Shown here: piece after piece, positions 13,201-51,512 of the stretch
Position numbering within the stretch: position 1 is the first letter of the stretch
How the letters are laid out: the number at the start of each line of letters is the position of its first letter
Assembly (NCBI GenBank): GCA_004335635.1
Contig: QAXH01006488.1
Coordinates: 1 to 64,000 of the forward strand
Direction of reading: 5' to 3'
DNA: 64,000 bases
Source: Chloromonas sp. AAM2
Lineage: Eukaryota > Chlorophyta > Chlorophyceae > Chlamydomonadales > Chlamydomonadaceae
Program-made: the position numbers and the translations under genes
Notes under the pieces: model-generated
What the model was told of the DNA's origin: nothing
Seen by the model: only the letters and a program-made list of their open reading frames with translations
The model's database searches: none

Positions 13201-16200
13201 AATCCGATCAGATTTAATTAAGCCGAAAATCCACAATTTTGTTTTGCATGGATTTTGGGAGTCCCGGTTTTTTTACAGTATTTTTCGGATGCCATCAATC
13301 TTGATTAGTTCTGGATAATAATTTGAAAACCCCTGGTAAGTAGCAAGAGCTGTGCTTGAGGATCCCAGGCGCAACCAGAATGCTGCTGTGAGGCAAACTT
13401 TGGAAAAACAGAGATAGCTGAAAATTCAAGCTGGCAGGGCGGGCAAGAGTGCAGTGCAAGTGTCGATTGGGGCGTGACTGTTGCCATGTGCTACGCGTTT
13501 CTGCTGTAACAAGAAGTCAAAAAGCCCCATTGTTTTCCAGCTGTTGCAGTGCTGATGAAGCTGACGAGCTGACTTGAGCAGCTCCCAGCCATAGGCTTGT
13601 CTGCAGTGCTATGGAATCATCTGCGAATACAAGGTTGTGCTGATGACACTGATACTGATGCTGTGTTTGCTTGTCTGTACAGGCTCGGCCCATAAGACAG
13701 CACTGCTGGCACGCCTGCGCAGCTTTGTCCGCACTGCCCTGGCAGCTGACTCAGGCACCCACCCACCCCTAGCGGCAGTGCTGCGCAAGCTGCAAGCTGC
13801 ACTTGCATGCGCGGAGAGCTTCCCTGTTCTTCTCTCCCGCGTAGCCCCGCCTCCGTCCAGCGGCCGTTTAGGCTCTTCCGCCTCCGTCTCCGCACCCTCC
13901 GCAGCCGCCAACGGCCTAGGCAGCTACCGCAGCGGCCTAGCCGCACTGGCTCGCCCCTTCAAGCTGCGCTTGTGCCGGCACTCTGGGGAGAAAACCCTCA
14001 AGGACTACGGCAGCAACGTCGTGTTAATCGAGCCGCTCGCGTCAATGTCAACAATCGAAGATTTCTTGTACCCGAGGGTAGCAGGTGGTGCTAGTATGTC
14101 GCCGATAGCGATTGCGGCGGAGGCTGCGGAGATGGCGAGGGCTGCAGCAGCGAGAGGCGAGGCTGCTGGCAGCAAAGACGCGGCAGGGAGCAGAGAGCGG
14201 TCAAAGTCGTTAGAACCGGGCGCAGCCGCGCTGGCGGGAAGTAGTGGCGGAGCCGCAGGGCGGACCGCGTCCGTACCTGCACCGATAGCAGCCAGCAAGG
14301 CGCAGCCCATACCCGAAGATAAGGGCAACCGGCGAATGACCCGTGCTGCAGCCCGCGCGGCTGCGGGCAATTTGGAAGAGCCCGCTGTAGGGAATGACGA
14401 GGATGAGGATGGGGACGCGCACATGGCACATGCGGACGAGGATCGGCCACTAGAGGAGGGTGGGTGCACTGTCAAGTCAGGACCACTTTCCCTGTGTTCG
14501 TTGTTGCCCTACAACACACATCCAATCGCATATGAACAGATCCTGCTATGAACAGATCCGGTCGTCCATCCATCTCTCGATGATGACGATTACACAAGGT
14601 TGACGTAGGCTATGTTTAGTTAGGAGTCACTGCTTGATGGTGATGATGCTGACTGCTTGTATGCAGGTGAGATGCCCGGTGCCGAGGGCTTGTTTGAGGA
14701 GGAAGACGATGAAGAAGACTACGATGAGGAGTTAGATGGAGACGACGACCCGGATCATGACATGGACATCGGGCCCATGCAGGTGCATGACTTGCATGTA
14801 GACGATGTCATGGCAGCAGCGCACGGGACCTCTGCGGCTGCAGCAGCAGCCATGCGACAGGCATCCGCACCGCCTGGTTCCGTGGCTGCTGCCGCAGCCT
14901 CTCCAGCTACACGCTTATCCAGTGCTAGTGGTGCTTCAGCTGGTGCAGCAGCAGCCAGCACAGCAGCCGCAGCGGCGGCAGCAGCCGCAGCGGCTCGGGC
15001 GCCGTCTGCGTGGGGCACTGGCCGGGGTGGGGCTGGTGCTAGCTCATCCGCTGCGGAAGTTCCCGCTGCAGTCCGCGCGGAGCAGCCCCGGTTAGTATTC
15101 TTCAGCGGTGCGCACAAGCTAGTCTCTGCCACAACCGTTTTCCAAGCCATCCAGCAGCAATCGCTGTCTCGCGCGTCCAACTCCGATGCTGCTGAGGGAG
15201 CAGAGGAAGGCACACGGGACCGGCAGATGTGGGACGGGGTGCACACGCTGCATTACCGCACGGCAACGGCCGCAGACGCCACACCGCCCCCCGGTGCAGG
15301 CAGCGCCTCCGCAAGCCCTGCACCGGAAGCACCAGCAAGCACCACTGCTACAGCTGCTGCGGCTGGCTTGAAGCTACCGTCGAGTGAGACAGATCTCCCG
15401 CTTGGTGCCGCCATGCCGGTTCAACAGGTGCAAGCAGTGAGCTTACCAGGCGACCTCACAGCAGAGCCTGCCTGTAGGGATCTAATGGAACTCATCAAGC
15501 TGCTAGAGGTGCTAAATAGGCTCGGTCCAAGGTTGTGCACAGCTGTGGAAGACGAGGAAGAGGCGACGGCAACCTCCCAGCAACCGTTGGTTTCGCAACG
15601 AGGGCGAGCAGGGGCGGTGGTGGTGGGCGCAGCATGCTCCACCGGGATTGTCGCAGCTGCTGAAGACAGGCCTGCTTACGGACGTGTTCCACGTGGCGAG
15701 TTTGTGTGCAGCAAGCTGGCATCCAAGCTCAGCCAACAGCTCAAGGATGTGCTGTCGATCTGTGGCGGTGGCTTGCCAGCATGGTGCCGACAGCTCGCAT
15801 TCAACTGCAAGCACCTTGTTCCATTTGAGGTGAGCTCCCTGCACGCAAAACATGTGCCCATGTTGCCGCGTCATTGCCCCAGATGCAGATCAGAGGCTTC
15901 AAAGATTTTGTAATTGTCTGGCGTGTGCCACAATGAGGGCCCTCCTGCTGAATACTTTACAGTTGTAAGCCCCGTACTATATCCTGATGCACAACACTGA
16001 CAACACACGTCTTGCCAGAAGGAGTCACTCTCAAGCATGGAACGACAATCATTTTCCAGTAACTGCCCTTTCCCTTACCATCCTTACCATCCTAAAAAGA
16101 CTCCTTTCCTTTTCCAATACCTGCCCTCTCCTTCGTCCCTGCAGGTGCGTCGGCGGCACTTCTACTGCACAGCCCTGGGCCTGGGCCGCGCTCTGCAACA

Positions 16201-42301: not shown

Positions 42302-45300
42302 ATGTCCATCCCGAGGCTGGAGCATCAACGAGCGCAAGGACTGTTACAATCTGATCGGAATCTCTTGTGCAGGCCATGCAATGCTTCCAAAGGCAGGCAG
42401 AAAGGAGGGGTAAGCGACGCCAGCAGTCCCGCATGAGTCCACGTGTACCATGCACCATGCTCCAAACATGCTGTGGTGCACCATGCATGGATGTTGTCAG
42501 GGCTTTTTGATCGTCATGCGAAGATCTGCACCACGAACAGCCGACCACTCCTTGTGCACCATGTTGTGGCACTTGGGACGAATTTTTATGTCAACAACAT
42601 GAGATCCTCACCACCACACAGCAACCTGTGCATCAGTATGTCACTTCATAGTAACTGTCATCATCAGCGTGTGAGGATCTTCATAGCCATCACCTGCGCA
42701 GGAAGGGGATCGCAGAGCAGGTGACAAGGCAGGCGAACGCTCGCCTAGCCCCTTGCCCAGCAGTCAGCCCATTCTTGAGATACCCAGCAGTTCCAAGGTG
42801 AGCGGCTCCAGCTCACCTAAACTCAACATTGAGATGCAGACGCTCACTCTGTCAGAGCCAACAGGCGATAGTTTGCCTAATCATGCATTGGCAAGTCGAT
42901 GGACACAAACATATGTAATGTATTGCAAAGTCTGGGCCATGCCATGAGCGTCAGAGCAGCGTCATCGAATTCACAGAGGTCCAAAGCAGCATGCTCTGCA
43001 GATGCGCGGACCAGAGGGGGACACAGGCATACGGCTGAGAAATCCGCAGCCACAAGCCAAAGCTATCAATGACCGTGCAGCATGCACTCCAGACCTGTCC
43101 ACTCACTCCTTCCGCCAATGTACATTTGCTTACTGCATGTTCTTTGGAACACATTCAACTGCGACAAGGACCTGTGACAATCGCACACACCATGAACCAA
43201 ATCATTCAGGACAGGTGGCGTCACATAACCACTGGTGTCAGTACCAGACACAAGAATTGCCCCAGAACTGGCAAACATTTTTTTGTTCTCTCTGCACCCT
43301 TTATATAGCCTTGCACTATTTATAGCCTTGCACTCCTTCCCTAACATCCATATTCGTGCTCTTGTCCGCAGCCGTCCCGTCCGTTTGAGCGTTCGGCATA
43401 CCGTCGGCGCACTCCCGACTGGGAGGCGGTCAAGCAGCACAAGGCAGACGCACGCAAGGAGAGGGAGGCCAGGGTGAGCAGGGGTGCGTTGGTGCCATCC
43501 TTTGGTGTTGTAGGGTGAGCAGGGGTGCGTTGGTGCCATCCTTTGGTGTTGTAGGGTGAGCAGGGGTGCGTTGGTGCCATCCTTTGGTGTTGTAGGGTGA
43601 GCAGGGGTGCGTTGGTGCCGTCCTTTGGTATTGTAGGGTGAGCAGGGGTGCGTTGGTGCCATCCTTTGGTGTTGTAGGGTGAGGAGGCCATCCCTTGGTG
43701 TTATTGTGGTGCTAGCTTTGCATTGCCAGTGGAGTTGTGGTGCTAATCTGGCATGGTCTGTCCACTCATGTGCAACTGCACATTCAAACGACATGAACCG
43801 CGAGCGTGTCAATTCTTGCAAGCAAAGGAAGCGTGGGGGTTACCTTGACATTGCCATGCATGATAATACCAGCATTGAGCTCAGTGTTCAGTGCCATTTC
43901 CGAATTGAGTATTGACATTTTCCCCCACCCTCACACGCAGGCTGCTAAGGTGGCCAAGTTTTCCCAGTCCATCCGCACAGACACCACAGCCCACTCATTC
44001 CTACCGTCCCTTCTGTTTGTGGACGGTTACAACGTACTGTTTCGTGATGCACAGCTGACAAAAGTGTTCCAGTTCAATCCGATACTGGGCCGAGCAGAAC
44101 TGGAAAAATGGTACGTCAAGCGCAAAGGCAAGGTGCTGACGCACGATGCTGTTCTATTCGTTGAGACCAATAGGCCGTACGCAAACAACACAAACAGGGA
44201 AAAATGTCGACAGACGCATTAAAAGCGATGCAAAACAGCACGAAGAACAGCATTGCGGTGGATATCAGTAGGTCACGCACTTGCGCTGAGCATGCATGGG
44301 AGCGAAAGTGCGCTGATTGCATGAGGTTGTTGTTGTTTCCAGAGGAGCGCAGTGGTCAGTAGGTTACCACCAGTTGGCCAGTTGGTCACTCACAGGTAAG
44401 GAAGCAACGATGTGCGGCCGTGCTAGCAAGTGTTACGAGGCAGTGTTGTTGTAGTTGTTGTTTACATGGCCTTCAGGTAGCGAGGACTGCTCAGCAGGGG
44501 CAAAGGGGGAAACAAAATTAGGCAACCTGACTGCACCCTCAGTAACAACAGCAAAAACAGCATGAGGCAGTGTGCCACATGCCATAGCACGTGACGTTTA
44601 CACAACTACCCATGTGACAGCAGTTGCCGCTGCACTGCGGTCTCTACAACTTGATCCATGGCCAATGCTGAGAAGAGGTCTTGTCCGTTGAAGTCGTGAT
44701 ACACACACTGGTTTATTTATCATTGGAAAAGACACTGCTCTTCAAAAGCAAGCACGAGCAACAAGTTCTGGCGAACACTTTCGCTTCACTTCGTTGCAAT
44801 TGGTGTATGTGAATGCGTTTTGTTGCGCACAGGGTGGAGGCGTACGCCCGTGTTGCGAGAATCCGCTGCATGATGGTGTGGGACGCCATGCAAGGGCACT
44901 CGCAAAGAGTGAGCAGGGGCCAGGTTGTGCGCGGCCAGGGCTGGGCTCGTTTTGGGTTCACAGCTTTCGTTTTACTTTCTTGCTCAGGGAGGGCCAGGGC
45001 GGTGCCCATCCCGTTCCGTGTCCTCTGACGGCTTTCCTGGTGTAAATACATGGCATTCTGCCTTGGAGTTTGGCATGACCACGGTTCCCATCTGTAGCTT
45101 TGCTTGTAGTCCTCTTTGGACTGAAGGCCAGCTGGTGTGTGCCATTTGACTACATTTCACTACACTTGCACCTTGACTGAGTGCGTTTTGGAGTTTGGTA
45201 CAGCCACCGTTCACGGTCAGTTACTTGATTGCGTCATGCCTTTGAGGCTTTGCACGACCGCAGCTACACGCCGTATGGAAGCTGGGTTAGTTGCCTGCCT

Positions 45301-48300
45301 TGTGCACGGTCACCATGCCTCGAGTGTTGAAGTAGTGTCAGGTTAAGTCTTCTTGCTTCAAGCTTTATCATCTTGTTTAGGCATTCCTATTAGTTTATTT
45401 AGGGCAAGCATGGCCAGTGTACGCAATCACACAGTTTCACACTTGTACCGGTTACTCACCCAATAAAGGCTTTGACCCGCGCTGCCCCCACAGACCACGC
45501 ACACGACAGCACCTGACAGTTGGGTGACGTGTGTGTACTCCGGGGCATGCGAGGCCGACACCTTGATCGTGGCCAAGGCGCAGCAGGCGCTCAGGAAGGG
45601 GGTCTACAAGGTGGTGGTGGTGTCGGCCGACAGGCGCATTCAAATGGAGGTGGGGGCTGACAGGCACTGGCGGGCAAACATGTCAAGAAGGAAGTGAAGT
45701 GAACCAGGTCTTCAGTCTATATTCTCATAGCAAGGTGTACGTAAAGGCCTTGCCAGACTATCCTGTGGCAGTCCTGCATGTATCGTGGTGTCATCACCAG
45801 TGCATGGCTCTTGGCATACCGCATCAACTGGCACTTGTCTGGTGTTTGGGCAGAGTATCGCTCGTTCGTTGTGGCTTGTGTTCAGGCAATGCACACCACG
45901 CAACTGCTGCACCCAAGGTAGCAATGCCACGTAACCTTTGTTGTTGGTGTGCTTTGCGGTCGCGCTGTCACCGGAGCCCACACTATCGTGGTGTTTGATG
46001 GCAGTGCGCTTTGCGATCGCGCCCACCCTGCCGTCTCATGTGCTGTGTTGTGTTGTGATGTGCAGCTCACTGATGAAGACAGCATCATGCTCGACACGGA
46101 CCAGTGAGTGGCGGTCCGGGGGGTGAAACTGCTCTACTGTCCTAGCAGCTTGTTGGGTCGCAAGACACACGAATTTCTTACACGCATGACCTCCACACCC
46201 CCCATGCGGTCATGTGTTCAAGTCCTTTGGCTGCGCGATGTTAGAAAATGGTCTGTTTCAAGATCGTTCGGGATGAAATCTTGATTTCCGGAAGCGCCTT
46301 GAATCGCCCTTTTCAACGCACCTTTCAAAGGGTTGGAGATCGAGGCCGGTGACTTGCCACGCCGGTTTTGGTGAAGGTGGTCAAAACCGTAAAAAAACAC
46401 GTTGTCTTGCTCGTTTGGTGGCCAAATGCGCTCCTTCAAGTTGCTGTAGCATGTTGGGCAGTAGCTGTCTGGAACCTTCCGCAGTGGAAACCTCTGGAGA
46501 CAGTCAGTAATCTTACAGTGGGCTCTCGGTATAACTTGACGTAAACAGCACAGGAGAGAGAAAAGTCCAGGCTATTTATAGCCCATACAACAGTAACATC
46601 ACATGACAGTAACGTCCTTCTAGAGTGTTCTGACCGAACCTTCTGGAACAGTCTCTAGAACCTTCAACACTCCTACGCGGGCAGAACACTCATCATTCAA
46701 CGAATGTTCAGCAAATCTCTGCACTTCATCAATTTGCCAGGTGGCAATGCCTTGGTCAGCATGTCCGCCGCCATCAAGCTTGTGTCAACGTACTCAAACT
46801 CCACTTCTCCTCTTGCCACCTTTCCCTGGCAAAATGGTGCATCAGGATACTGAAGGATGCAATCGCTTCGGTACGGTCAAAGCATATTGATGTGATGCAC
46901 CATTTTGCCAGGAAAAGGGTGGCAAGAGGAGAAGTGGAGTTTGAGTACGTTGACACAAGCTTGATGGCGGCGGACATGCTGACCAAGGCATTGCCACCTG
47001 GCAAATTGATGAAGTGCAGAGATTTGCTGAACATTCGTTGAATGATGAGTGTTCTGCCCGCGTAGGAGTGTTGAAGGTTCTAGAGACTGTTCCAGAAGGT
47101 TCGGTCAGAACACTCTAGAAGGACGTTACTGTCATGTGATGTTACTGTTGTATGGGCTATAAATAGCCTGGACTTTTCTCTCTCTCTGTGCTGTTTACGT
47201 CAAGTTATACCGAGAGCCCACTGTAAGATTACTGACTGTCTCCAGAGGTTTCCACTGCGGAAGGTTCCAGACAGCTACTGCCCAACATAGCATGCTGTCA
47301 TGTGCGCGGAGGCAGTAGAGAAAGACCCTGCTCATCGTGTCTCTTTGGACATGGCTTACAGTCGATAACGGCCGTTTCACGTGACGGCAATTATCTCCTC
47401 GTGTTTCAAACCAAATATGGAATTTAAAAGGTCAGGCAGCATCTTCTCGGCGAGACACGTGCGAATATGCAAAAACATTTCTGGAGATCGACGTCGATGA
47501 GCAGCAAAAACCGAAAAGCGCTTCTAGGCATGTGGATGATGGGCATCTTGCAAATGCATTATGGGCAGTCATGGTCGTGCGCAGTGTCATGAATACAAAT
47601 TTGATGCACAGTGGCTGCCCTGCTCGCCTGGTGGGCTACTCAGTCTTGAAGCTGGTGCGTGTGTCCCCTTGTACGCGTGTGTGTGTGGCGCCTTGTCCAT
47701 GGTGGCTCGGAAGTGAGTCTGCAGCTGTGTCAGCGGACTGTCCGCCAGTCTGCTGGAGAAGGGGACCATGAGATTGGGGCTGTAGTGGCGCCACCTGGCT
47801 GCGGCTGGCTGTGGCTGGCGGCCACCACAGCCAAGTAGCGCAGCACTGCACTGGCAAAGGATTTGTAGTGCAGGTGTTGGGTAATGGTTCGGAAGAGCGT
47901 CTCCAGCAGGTTTGTGCTGGTGCTGCGTGGGTGAGCTGGGTCAGGGTTGAGTGGCGAACGTGCCGTGAATTGCTGTTGACTGCATGAGTCGTGGCTGAGC
48001 ATCGCATGGAGGAGCAGCAGCGGGTTGTGGTGCTTTTGGTTGTAGCTTGCAGACCATTGTGTGACAGAAGCGGAACAGCATGGTGGCTGAGGCTGCTCGA
48101 ACGAGCCCGTGCAGCTCCACATGTCAGGCCACATGGGCGACCCAAAGCAAGTCGCTTACTTTGCGACAAAGCAAGCCGATACTGTGACACAACCCTAGTC
48201 TTTTAGACCTAGCGGCTCACCGGCGCAACCATTCTCGGCGATTGCAAGATCTTCGTGTAGCCATTGATCTTGGCTACAATATTGCTTGAAGCTGTGCTGT

Positions 48301-49099
48301 GTGCGAGAAATTCTAACATCGCGAGTGTGATCGCCAAGGTCACACAGGCAAAAGAGACCGCATGGGGGTGTGCATGGTCTCTTCAGCTTCCAATCCCATG
48401 TTTTCAATATTGCTAGCAGGCCACAGTGAACGCCATCCTTGTGATATTTCCCAGATCAGCTTCATACGTGGGATCGCTTGCGCTGCTCCGAATTGTTATG
48501 GCAAAGTTGTTATTCACGTTTTGCTGGCTTGTGGCAGAACTATGGTTTACCGCCAACCGACGCATTGACGCTTTTGCTACCAACACTTTCCAGTGTGTTG
48601 TCTCAGTTTACACCTCAACCGAAGCATTTGATTTTATTCCTGTTTCACCCTAACCTCCAGGTTCATGCAGCATTTGCGGGAGGTCCAAGCCGGCAACACC
48701 TCAGGCCCCGAGTCCTGGCGCTCGTTGTGGCGTCGGCCCCGACTCACACCCTACAACCCCCAGCAACAAGAGGCTAACAGAGCAACGCAGCTTCTGGCCT
48801 CAGGTGCACATGGGCAAAGTGACGGTAGCGATTCCGAGGATGTATCAGAAGGCCAGGCAACAATGCAGGAGTTGGTAGGCTCCCATGAATTGGTTTCTGC
48901 TCTAGAGTTGATAGTGCAGAAGGAACAGAGGCGGCAGCAGGGTGAGGGGCTGTACTCAGGCAGGGGGGCGGCGTACATGCAAGCGCTGTTATCATCGACC
49001 AATGCAACCCCATCGGAAGGCGAAAACGAGCCATTGACGCCAAGCGATGACGACGAGGATGATGACGATTTGGATGCGTTGCTGAGAAGGAAATTCTGA
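42302..49099 (+). CDS. YacP-like NYN-domain ribonuclease
   Basis: Eight exons: 42302-42409, 42702-42797, 43372-43473, 43941-44110, 44833-44908, 45494-45649, 46066-46103, 48661-49099. All phases agree and give 394 residues. The NYN (PIN-like) domain shows its acidic positions: LLFVDGYNVLF (Asp near 130), CMMVWDAM, VYSGACEADTLI and VVVVSADRRI. Bacterial YacP/Rae1 is an endoribonuclease acting on mRNA at the ribosome; plant homologues are predicted organellar. The C-terminus has a basic Arg/Pro segment and a Glu/Asp-rich end (DDDEDDDDLDALLRRKF). The same frame stays open back to an ATG at 42086 (466 residues), but that start would be only 21 bp from the divergent gene's ATG and adds Cys-rich sequence, so I prefer 42302. 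Introns 3 and 7 carry a minisatellite and a copia palindrome. Confidence 0.85.
43235..43295 (-). repeat. A-rich dispersed repeat, copy 4
   Basis: On the minus strand it reads AAAAAAATGTTTGCCAG, then TTCTGGGGCAATTC and TTGTGTCTGGTACTGA. Beyond the core it agrees with the copy at 2920-2980. It lies in intron 2 of the YacP-like gene. Confidence 0.55.
43474..43700 (+). repeat. 41-bp minisatellite starting at a splice donor
   Basis: GTGAGCAGGGGTGCGTTGG begins at 43474, exactly at the intron 3 donor, and recurs at 43515, 43556, 43597 and 43638 with a degraded sixth unit at 43679. Period is 41 bp and copies are nearly identical. Every unit contains TTGTAGG|GTGAGC, that is both an AG and a donor-like GTGAGC. 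Confidence 0.95.
44968..45051 (-). repeat. 84-bp repeat, inverted partner of 50734-50817
   Basis: Read on the minus strand this segment matches 50734-50817 from ATGTATT(T/C)ACACC through GGGATGGGCACCGCCC to AAAACG, with about eight differences in 84 bases. It sits in YacP-like intron 5. The other copy lies downstream of the Fanzor remnant. Confidence 0.85.
46218..46439 (-). other. Low-GC open frame next to the palindrome
   Basis: A minus-strand frame of about 73 residues (IWPPNEQDNVFFYGFDHL and onward). If the palindrome and one target copy are removed, the frame continues upstream to an ATG beyond 47292. Farther along, about 47380-47530 on the minus strand, another coding-like stretch occurs (EKMLPDLLNSIFGLKHEE). 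I do not recognise either. They may be relics of an older element that the copia palindrome entered. Confidence 0.3.
46452..46669 (-). repeat. Copia LTR, inverted left copy
   Basis: Reverse complement of the LTR at 47069-47287, 218 bp, TG...CA ended. It differs by a 1-2 base change in a CT run. TATTTATA at 46573-46580 is the inverted TATA box. Confidence 0.92.
46847..47041 (+). pseudogene. Copia pol fragment, C-terminal end of RNase H
   Basis: Open frame through the loop and right arm ending in TGA at 47039-47041. It has the classical copia end: SKHIDVMHHFARKRVARGEV, then FEYVDTSLMAADMLTKALP and CRDLL. This tail follows the RNase H core of Ty1/copia polyproteins. No other pol, gag or integrase sequence is present, so the element is non-autonomous. 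The left arm carries the inverted copy with a 1-bp gap that breaks its frame. Confidence 0.92.
47069..47287 (+). repeat. Copia LTR, right copy
   Basis: 219 bp from TGTTGAAGGTTC to CTGCCCAACA, starting 27 bp after the pol stop codon, as expected for a 3' LTR behind a polypurine tract (GTAGGAG). Confidence 0.92.
47157..47166 (+). promoter_or_regulatory. LTR TATA box
   Basis: CTATAAATAG within the LTR, about 88 bp from its start, a typical U3 core promoter. The mirrored LTR has the same box pointing the other way, so this element could fire transcription outward from both arms. Confidence 0.7.
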
Positions 49100-50509: not shown

Positions 50510-51512
50510 CATGGGGTGCGAGTCCCCTTACCAACGCAACCCTGAACACTGATCGGATCTTGGGCCGGTCGGAAATAGGGACTGTCACTGTATTATAGAT
50601 TCACCAAGATGATAGCACTCTCAGAGTCTGGTAACCACGCCACTTGGGGAGCACCTGGGGAGCGGAAGCACGGAAGCATCTGTTTCCGCGCGATCTTTGC
50701 GTCAGTGACGCGCGCAAACACTGCCCAGTATATATGTATTCACACCAGGGAAGCCGTCAGAGGACACGGGACGGGATGGGCACCGCCCTGGCCTACCCTG
50801 AGCAAGAAAGCAAAACGGACCAGTCGATGCGACCCAATGGCGAAGGACAATGACAAAGGGCAGTGAAAAAGTAGGCTGTTTTGCTACCGATGGAGATATT
50901 GTGGAGATACTGCTCCGCTTCTGTCACTGCAGTGCGCTTTATGCTGCAGCGTGTATCAATCACGCATTCTCAAACAAGCCCGAAGGTGGCAGGCTAGCAA
51001 GAAAAAATGTTCCTGTTGCTCAACTTGATTGCTCAGGCTATGAGTGTATCTATCCTTGTCTTAAGCATGGTTTGCTAGCATTTGTGACATACACAAACAG
51101 CGGCTCAGCACACTCGGCTATAATCTCTGCCTACCTGCTTTGCAAGCCTGTGTGTTAACACGGCTCTGGTGAAGGTAGGCCTAGCAGGACAGTTGTGAAC
51201 TGGTAAAGACAATCCAGAGTGCAAGCAGAGACACCATACACTGCGCTCGCGGCCGCAGCCAGGGCCAGGATCGAACTCCATCTGCTATGAAGAAGAACCA
51301 GAAAAGAACCAACAGGCTCCTCAGCCGTCCGCATTCTATCCATTGCATGGCGGCTTCTGCGATGACTCACGAGCAAAGAAAACGCTCGCGCGAAGCCCTT
51401 GTTGGCGTCATTTGCGTAGACGTCTTGACTTGTTTTGGCTGCAGACAGCTGCTGCCAGTAGTGGATTGATCAGATAAGCCCACCTGCTACGCTCCAAGTC
51501 CTCTGCGCCCGG
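50510..51512. other. Intergenic region after the Fanzor remnant
   Basis: Contains the 84-bp repeat at 50734-50817. A 102-codon frame at 50850-51158 (+) has no recognisable content and poor codon regularity. The promoter of the gene at 51513 should lie in the last few hundred bases; no TATA box seen. Confidence 0.45.
50734..50817 (+). repeat. 84-bp repeat downstream of the Fanzor remnant
   Basis: Partner of 44968-45051 (opposite strand), about 90 % alike by eye, sharing AGCCGTCAGAGGACACGG and GGGATGGGCACCGCCCTGG. It starts about 225 bp after the end of the Fanzor frame, where the guide-type (omega) RNA of such elements would be expected. Confidence 0.85.

Follow-up and report, generated by a model that had tools for sequence, protein, structure and literature searches.

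An almost perfect palindrome of a copia-like element, inserted with a clean five-base footprint in the genome of Chloromonas sp. AAM2

Introduction

Ty1/copia elements are the nearest described relatives of the locus presented here, and share with it TGTTG...CAACA LTRs, a 5-bp target duplication and a pol that ends in an RSKHIDV...ADxLTKAL block. In an LTR element the minus strand is primed by a tRNA at the primer-binding site; synthesis covers U5 and R, is transferred to the 3' end and proceeds through U3 into pol, so that the 5' end of this strand is a U5 end. Two RNA copies are packaged by copia. Snap-back priming is a test-tube property of reverse transcriptases, and older retrovirus work from the 1980s on defective or aberrant DNA forms likely exists. 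The 5' inversions of LINE-1 arise by twin priming, with a flanking duplication, in an element that is target-primed and without LTRs, and only the 5' part is inverted. DIRS-type elements have a tyrosine recombinase gene and no target-site duplication.

Inverted segments occur in retrotransposed LINE-1 copies (PMC2912911, in its available part) and in integrated HIV-1 proviruses, with inversions (n = 1, 1.3%) and inversion plus deletion (n = 1, 1.3%); the accessible portion of the latter report describes neither a palindrome with two outward U5 ends nor an origin of the inversions (PMC9278108). In self-primed LTR elements of the Tf1 type the primer is the element's own nucleic acid and not a tRNA, according to the accessible text of PMC5445492, and this is normal initiation on RNA, whereas the fold proposed below would come late, in nascent cDNA. 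PMC3185662 does not mention self-priming. Host fold-back duplications are among the nearest literature (PMC7467729, as far as its available text goes). The inverted duplications formed at breaks in yeast have a 10 bp imperfect inverted repeat with a 41-nt spacer in the part of PMC11724301 that is accessible, and the likeness to our locus, as interpreted below, lies in inverted copying that is primed by a short stretch of inverted microhomology enclosing a loop of about 40-50 nt. The yeast events depend on host polymerase and end joining at a chromosome break, whereas our locus has LTR ends and an integrase-type duplication. Among the open-access papers listed in our searches, no title or abstract opening reports an LTR insertion of palindromic form in which both U5 ends face outward.

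Here we analyse such a locus in a window of 64,000 nucleotides, the whole stretch of DNA under study.

Results

The locus is a copia-like remnant of 836 bases (46452-47287) that is almost a perfect mirror image of itself and has a clean five-base insertion footprint. Its two LTRs face outward and enclose inverted copia-like pol 3' ends, and the arms of 393 bases (46452-46844) and 395 bases (46893-47287) are separated by a 48-bp loop (Table 1). Self-alignment confirmed what a sequence-only reading had described, namely the outward LTRs, the inverted pol 3' end, the loop, the TG...CA ends and a TAGCA on both sides. The inverted-repeat search paired 46451-46553 with 47186-47288 and 46554-46823 with 46915-47184, both at 100%, and 46819-46844 with 46893-46918 at 96%. 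When the element was aligned to its own reverse complement the arms differed at three places: there is a 1-nt indel in the GA run of the left LTR (after 46553) and another near 46818/46819, and base 46824 is substituted. This sole substitution stands beside the second indel in one short run. The palindrome is thus near-perfect, and the word "perfect" that was used for it earlier does not hold strictly. It was also called young; the arms are nearly identical, as that claim had it, and since gene conversion can keep close palindrome arms alike, their likeness does not prove youth.

Beyond the LTR there are 175 nt of pol in one arm and 224 nt in the other, an offset of 49 nt. The insert consists of LTR and pol-end sequence only, without gag, protease, integrase, reverse transcriptase or a primer-binding site. 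The purine-rich stretch GCGTAGGAG before the right LTR is weak as a purine tract.

Table 1. Parts of the palindromic insert and its target duplication, with positions in the window
Feature	Position	Strand	Basis or remark
Left target-site duplication TAGCA	46447..46451	.	Single copy at empty paralogous sites L035 and L039
Left LTR, 218 bp, U5 end outward, 1-nt indel after 46553	46452..46669	-	Boundaries match the solo LTR at C194
Left inner arm, inverted pol 3' end, 175 nt, two of the three arm differences (near 46818/46819; 46824)	46670..46844	-	91% over residues 20-64 of P0001
Left half of fold-point inverted repeat, GGTGCATCA	46836..46844	+	Probably at least partly parental, upstream of the loop (codons TGC ATC A..)
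Unique 48-bp loop, ILKDAIASVRSKHID, in frame with right arm	46845..46892	+	27-base core single-copy in the assembly at up to 3 mismatches
Right half of fold-point inverted repeat, TGATGCACC	46893..46901	+	Sequence letters
Right inner arm, copia-like pol 3' end (RNase H end)	46893..47068	+	Stop codon 47039-47041, then short purine-rich GCGTAGGAG, then LTR
Right LTR, 219 bp, U5 end outward	47069..47287	+	Self-alignment and solo-LTR comparison
Right target-site duplication TAGCA	47288..47292	.	Sequence and empty paralogues

The sequences that flank the palindrome are part of an interspersed repeat. The left flank gave 19 matches and the right flank 22, each count including itself, on 25 other contigs together. 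Paralogous loci were fetched from nine of these 25 contigs, mostly picked for matches that reach the junction, and were compared by blastn with both flanks joined around one TAGCA. In all nine a single blastn piece spans the junction, which is crossed by at least 40 bp in seven of them and by just 10-12 bp in L041 and L042. Exactly one TAGCA is present in two of the nine (L035 and L039), the remaining loci being more diverged there, and on C570 (L035) the matches of the left and right flanks overlap by exactly 5 bases, 1274-1278. As both flanks match one continuous paralogue, the target was continuous and the insert added itself and five bases. This indicates a clean integrase-type insertion at TAGCA, and such continuity argues strongly against a chimeric assembly and against a later inversion or a recombination between two elements, after which the two flanks would no longer match. 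The earlier proposal of an integration through two U5 ends with one target duplication is thereby supported by the empty paralogues.

The multicopy repeat that the palindrome entered has imperfect 24-bp inverted repeats at its ends (46188-46211 and 48356-48379) and resembles a TIR DNA transposon of about 1.35 kb minus the insert. Its left end is overlapped by a frame-shifted stretch at 46130-46300, which we take to resemble vaguely a copia integrase end; Pfam was empty for this stretch in one frame. An inverted pair of 84 bp (93%), at 44968-45051 and 50734-50817 and 5.7 kb apart, flanks the locus.

Read from 46847, the loop and the right arm give ILKDAIASVRSKHIDVMHHFARKRVARGEVEFEYVDTSLMAADMLTKALPPGKLMKCRDLLNIR and then a stop. 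The right arm is in frame and similar to its relatives, and the left arm is shifted. The protein search gave 25 matches at E<=1e-3, the best being P0002 at 81%; relatives were restricted to 0.55-1.75 times the query length and are hence short pieces. Within this genome the query also matches two copia-like loci at 44%, and one of these, on C1918, lies directly downstream of an RVT_2 match on the same strand. The assignment of the pol fragment to the RNase H end of a copia pol rests on this neighbour and on the motif RSKHIDV...ADxLTKAL, a block that we take to be of Ty1/copia type. Pfam gave nothing for seven of eight proteins, P0001 and two copia relatives included, and two sub-threshold matches only for the eighth, from a neighbouring frame; a PDB search with P0001 gave no match.

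Copia elements appear to be very rare in this genome, with one RVT_2 match in the 74-Mb assembly. RNase H queries found C1917, C1918, C860 and the palindrome locus, with weak fragments on C2094, C1236 and C583, and among these matches the palindrome locus is the only inverted pair. Within the 9.5 kb around the copia end on C1917 there are three tandem copies with a 90-bp period (L016:1976-2270). The parent element, which had been suggested as a search target, was not found in the assembly by DNA, pattern or protein search, and the 71 pattern matches in viral contigs that were obtained when it was sought via P0002 included none that could be confirmed.

The ends of the LTR are set independently by three solo LTRs elsewhere in the genome, each with its own 5-bp duplication: GCCCT at C194, CAGTC at C981 and GGACT at C2216, where the first LTR base is changed. 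The right LTR differs from the C194 solo LTR by two substitutions and two indels (13 and 6 nt); the CT run of the latter is shorter and uninterrupted, and that of the right LTR is likewise uninterrupted. These three were the only LTR relatives found in the 74-Mb assembly, in which our counts are lower bounds and which may be incomplete. With a 14-base seed, the 9.5-kb stretches around the solo LTRs held no second LTR and no pairing repeat of at least 50 nt, and no inverted pair of that length was found in any of the six fetched 9.5-kb loci, three around solo LTRs and three around copia matches. With a shorter seed, the locus around the C981 solo LTR (L003) showed unrelated inverted pairs, 59, 42 and 34 nt long at 80-83%, that lie beyond the LTR itself; right next to this solo LTR, at L003:1906-2108, there are inverted and direct repeats that overlap one another and have lengths of 31-59 nt and a likeness of 68-84%.

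The fold point can be read in some detail. Loop and right arm share one reading frame, and for this reason we take them to represent the original cDNA, with the left arm as its inverted copy. Leftward of the loop this frame can be followed into the end of the left arm, where it reads TGC ATC AGG, i.e. C-I-R, so that the residues from left arm into loop are C-I-R-I-L-K-D. The same order is found in P0002, where C-I-R precedes ILKDAIASVR, and CIRILKDAIASVR aligns identically to P0002 across the fold boundary. One residue further out the match stops, with W here and G in P0002, as is expected where copied sequence begins. Cysteine stands at its column in one of 24 aligned rows and arginine in one of 25, P0002 both times, and the next relative compared, P0016, matches from I onward. 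By construction these bases of the left arm complement TGATGCA of the right arm, and they also look like upstream codons of the parent.

The parent thus likely carried an inverted repeat of 7-9 nt (GGTGCATCA/TGATGCACC) around the loop, with TGCATCA upstream and TGATGCA downstream, as judged through one protein relative, P0002, and not from DNA. The simplest reading would be a repeat of 7 nt, which a G as the last base of the glycine codon would lengthen to as many as 9 nt, and the parental bases just upstream of GGATACTGAAGG are predicted to be (GG)TGCATCA. Of the 219 minus-strand 7-mers of the pol region only two could fit these residues by chance, one of them being the observed 7-mer. Among 20,000 base shuffles, 88 gave a terminal inverted match of 7 nt within 20-120 nt, and 9 gave one of 9 nt. 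The 66-nt minus-strand segment with a 9-bp stem folds at -10.0 kcal/mol, a value that includes the stem by construction and serves as illustration only. RNA of the loop and pol gave a folding z of -2.60 and the DNA minus strand of the whole pol region a z of -0.92, which is not unusual, and despite the former value we do not claim a special stall structure. Priming from a small hairpin inside the loop was dropped, as the junction letters do not continue in the way that it requires.

All three arm differences appear derived in the left arm, the expected second copy. This polarity is based on the frame of the right arm against the shifted left one, and on the uninterrupted run of the C194 solo LTR. 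A copied arm should carry the new errors, so the direction is the one predicted, and the polarity weakly favours the left arm as the putative copy. Three differences would all point one way by chance in 1 case of 8 (1 in 4 if either arm is counted), and the two in pol are about 6 bases apart and may be one event, while the one in the LTR is polarised by a single solo LTR.

Discussion

The palindrome is a derivative of a Ty1/copia element and not a standard member. It has the TG...CA LTR ends and the 5-bp duplication with an intact empty site that are expected of copia, and it departs from copia in having inverted LTRs with pol inward of each; direct LTRs and a primer-binding site after the 5' LTR are absent. 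The TAGCA duplication and the empty sites also set it apart from DIRS-type elements. A fold-back DNA transposon or MITE was rejected, as the loop and inner part were found only here in the assembly and the arms contain an LTR that is known also as solo LTRs, and so was a TRIM or other non-autonomous LTR family, as one copy was found and its LTRs are inverted and not direct.

We think it probable, though with reservations, that a minus-strand cDNA of a copia-like element folded back, copied itself and was integrated as a palindrome via two U5 ends. The cDNA is likely to have stopped in the RNase H end of pol. If the parent had GG(N)TGCATCA upstream of the loop, the 3' end of the cDNA, TGATGCA, could pair with its own TGCATCA, made about 50 nt earlier, and the strand would likely fold back at this putative 7-9-nt inverted repeat around the 48-nt loop. 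Reverse transcriptase would then extend the folded primer through the PPT, U3, R and U5 to its own U5 end. Conversion of the hairpin to a linear duplex would have to follow, for example if a new tRNA primed on the copied primer-binding site and strand displacement proceeded around the loop, and this is the least certain step; finally, integrase would join both U5 ends, which are identical, to the target at a 5-bp stagger. Both the fold-point inverted repeat and the polarity of the arm differences favour such priming within what would be one minus-strand cDNA, and a local fold directly explains the near-equal arms with their offset of 49 nt, which two independent cDNA ends do not. The sequence-only reading had proposed self-priming, and its fold-back in the RNase H end agrees with the fold-point repeat and the polarity. 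Its simple hairpin is not sufficient by itself, since it has one open end and one 3'-OH, and a 5-bp duplication needs two, so that an extra copying step or a second cDNA is called for. Had a single hairpin been joined by half-site integration, the 5-bp duplication would be missing, and this route was therefore rejected.

A second cDNA is the core of the alternative that survives best. Two truncated minus-strand cDNAs from one particle could be joined tail to tail, either with the 3' end of one priming on the other, or with integrase inserting both U5 ends together and the host closing the gap by microhomology end joining at TGATGCA/TGCATCA. This would supply the two U5 3'-OH ends that the 5-bp duplication requires without any opening of a hairpin, the same microhomology would serve, and HIV-1 is stated to package two RNA copies in the accessible text of PMC9278108. 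The two independent ends must however fall within 49 nt of each other, a chance of about 2-3% if they are spread over an internal region of roughly 4 kb, and all three arm differences look derived in one arm; we regard the joining of two cDNAs as possible but doubtful.

A later rearrangement of an ordinary insertion, whether through inversion or through break repair by fold-back, is very unlikely. Such repair is known from yeast, according to the available part of PMC11724301, so the geometry of the fold does not in itself single out reverse transcriptase. The rearrangement would however need endpoints that coincide precisely with the LTR terminus and with the last base of the first TAGCA, and would have to delete the whole 5' part of the element without a scar, and both flanks match one continuous paralogue. 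That an inversion after insertion could not place a single duplication around both U5 ends had been argued from the start, and the continuity of the flanks and the exact ends nearly refute it.

The sequence-only reading had also raised a distinct non-autonomous class, here taken as a mobile palindromic family that replicates as such, and had proposed a genome search for copies with the same loop. The insert has an identical U5 end on either side, and integrase could in principle use the two again. The 27-base core of the loop nevertheless occurs once in the 74-Mb assembly at up to 3 mismatches, the inner sequence has no second copy there (these counts too are lower bounds), and the LTR promoters, judged by their orientation, would point outward, so that no element-length internal transcript is expected. 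A mobile family is highly improbable, and on present evidence the palindrome is an accident and not a mobile class. That the locus is an artefact of assembly or library, made from a chimeric inverted read, is scarcely credible: palindromes are common library artefacts, but here the mirror symmetry stops precisely where the two LTRs end, the flanks are unlike each other, have a matching duplication and are contiguous minus the insert in paralogues, and the arms differ at three places.

If snap-back priming is the right explanation, then the locus would be a rare fossil of it, one in which the two arms and their fold point can be read together with the probable microhomology for priming, the duplicated target and the empty paralogues. 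It would imply that copia integrase can work with a pair of identical U5 ends, and that completion of a palindromic cDNA to a linear duplex is possible. A wider claim, which we put forward as speculation and consider unlikely, is that copia reverse transcription genuinely yields, as an alternative product, palindromic cDNA with a U5 end on either side, and that integrase can make full use of it. Were it true, the inserted palindrome would outlive its own family because inverted LTRs cannot recombine to a solo LTR. If transcribed through from a neighbour, it would produce hairpin RNA, almost 400 bp long and directed against LTR and pol, and so be a natural locus for the silencing of its own family. 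The palindrome holds the only inner sequence of the family that was found, the other three LTR loci being solo LTRs, and judging from these three it may have survived since its inverted LTRs cannot collapse in this way. This suggests what may survive when a family decays.

Elsewhere in the window there are exon-like open frames at 13637-15913. The second of them, a HECT-like frame at 14657-15913, matches five proteins, and four of these, at 34-37% identity, are named TRIP12-type E3 ubiquitin ligase by JGI.
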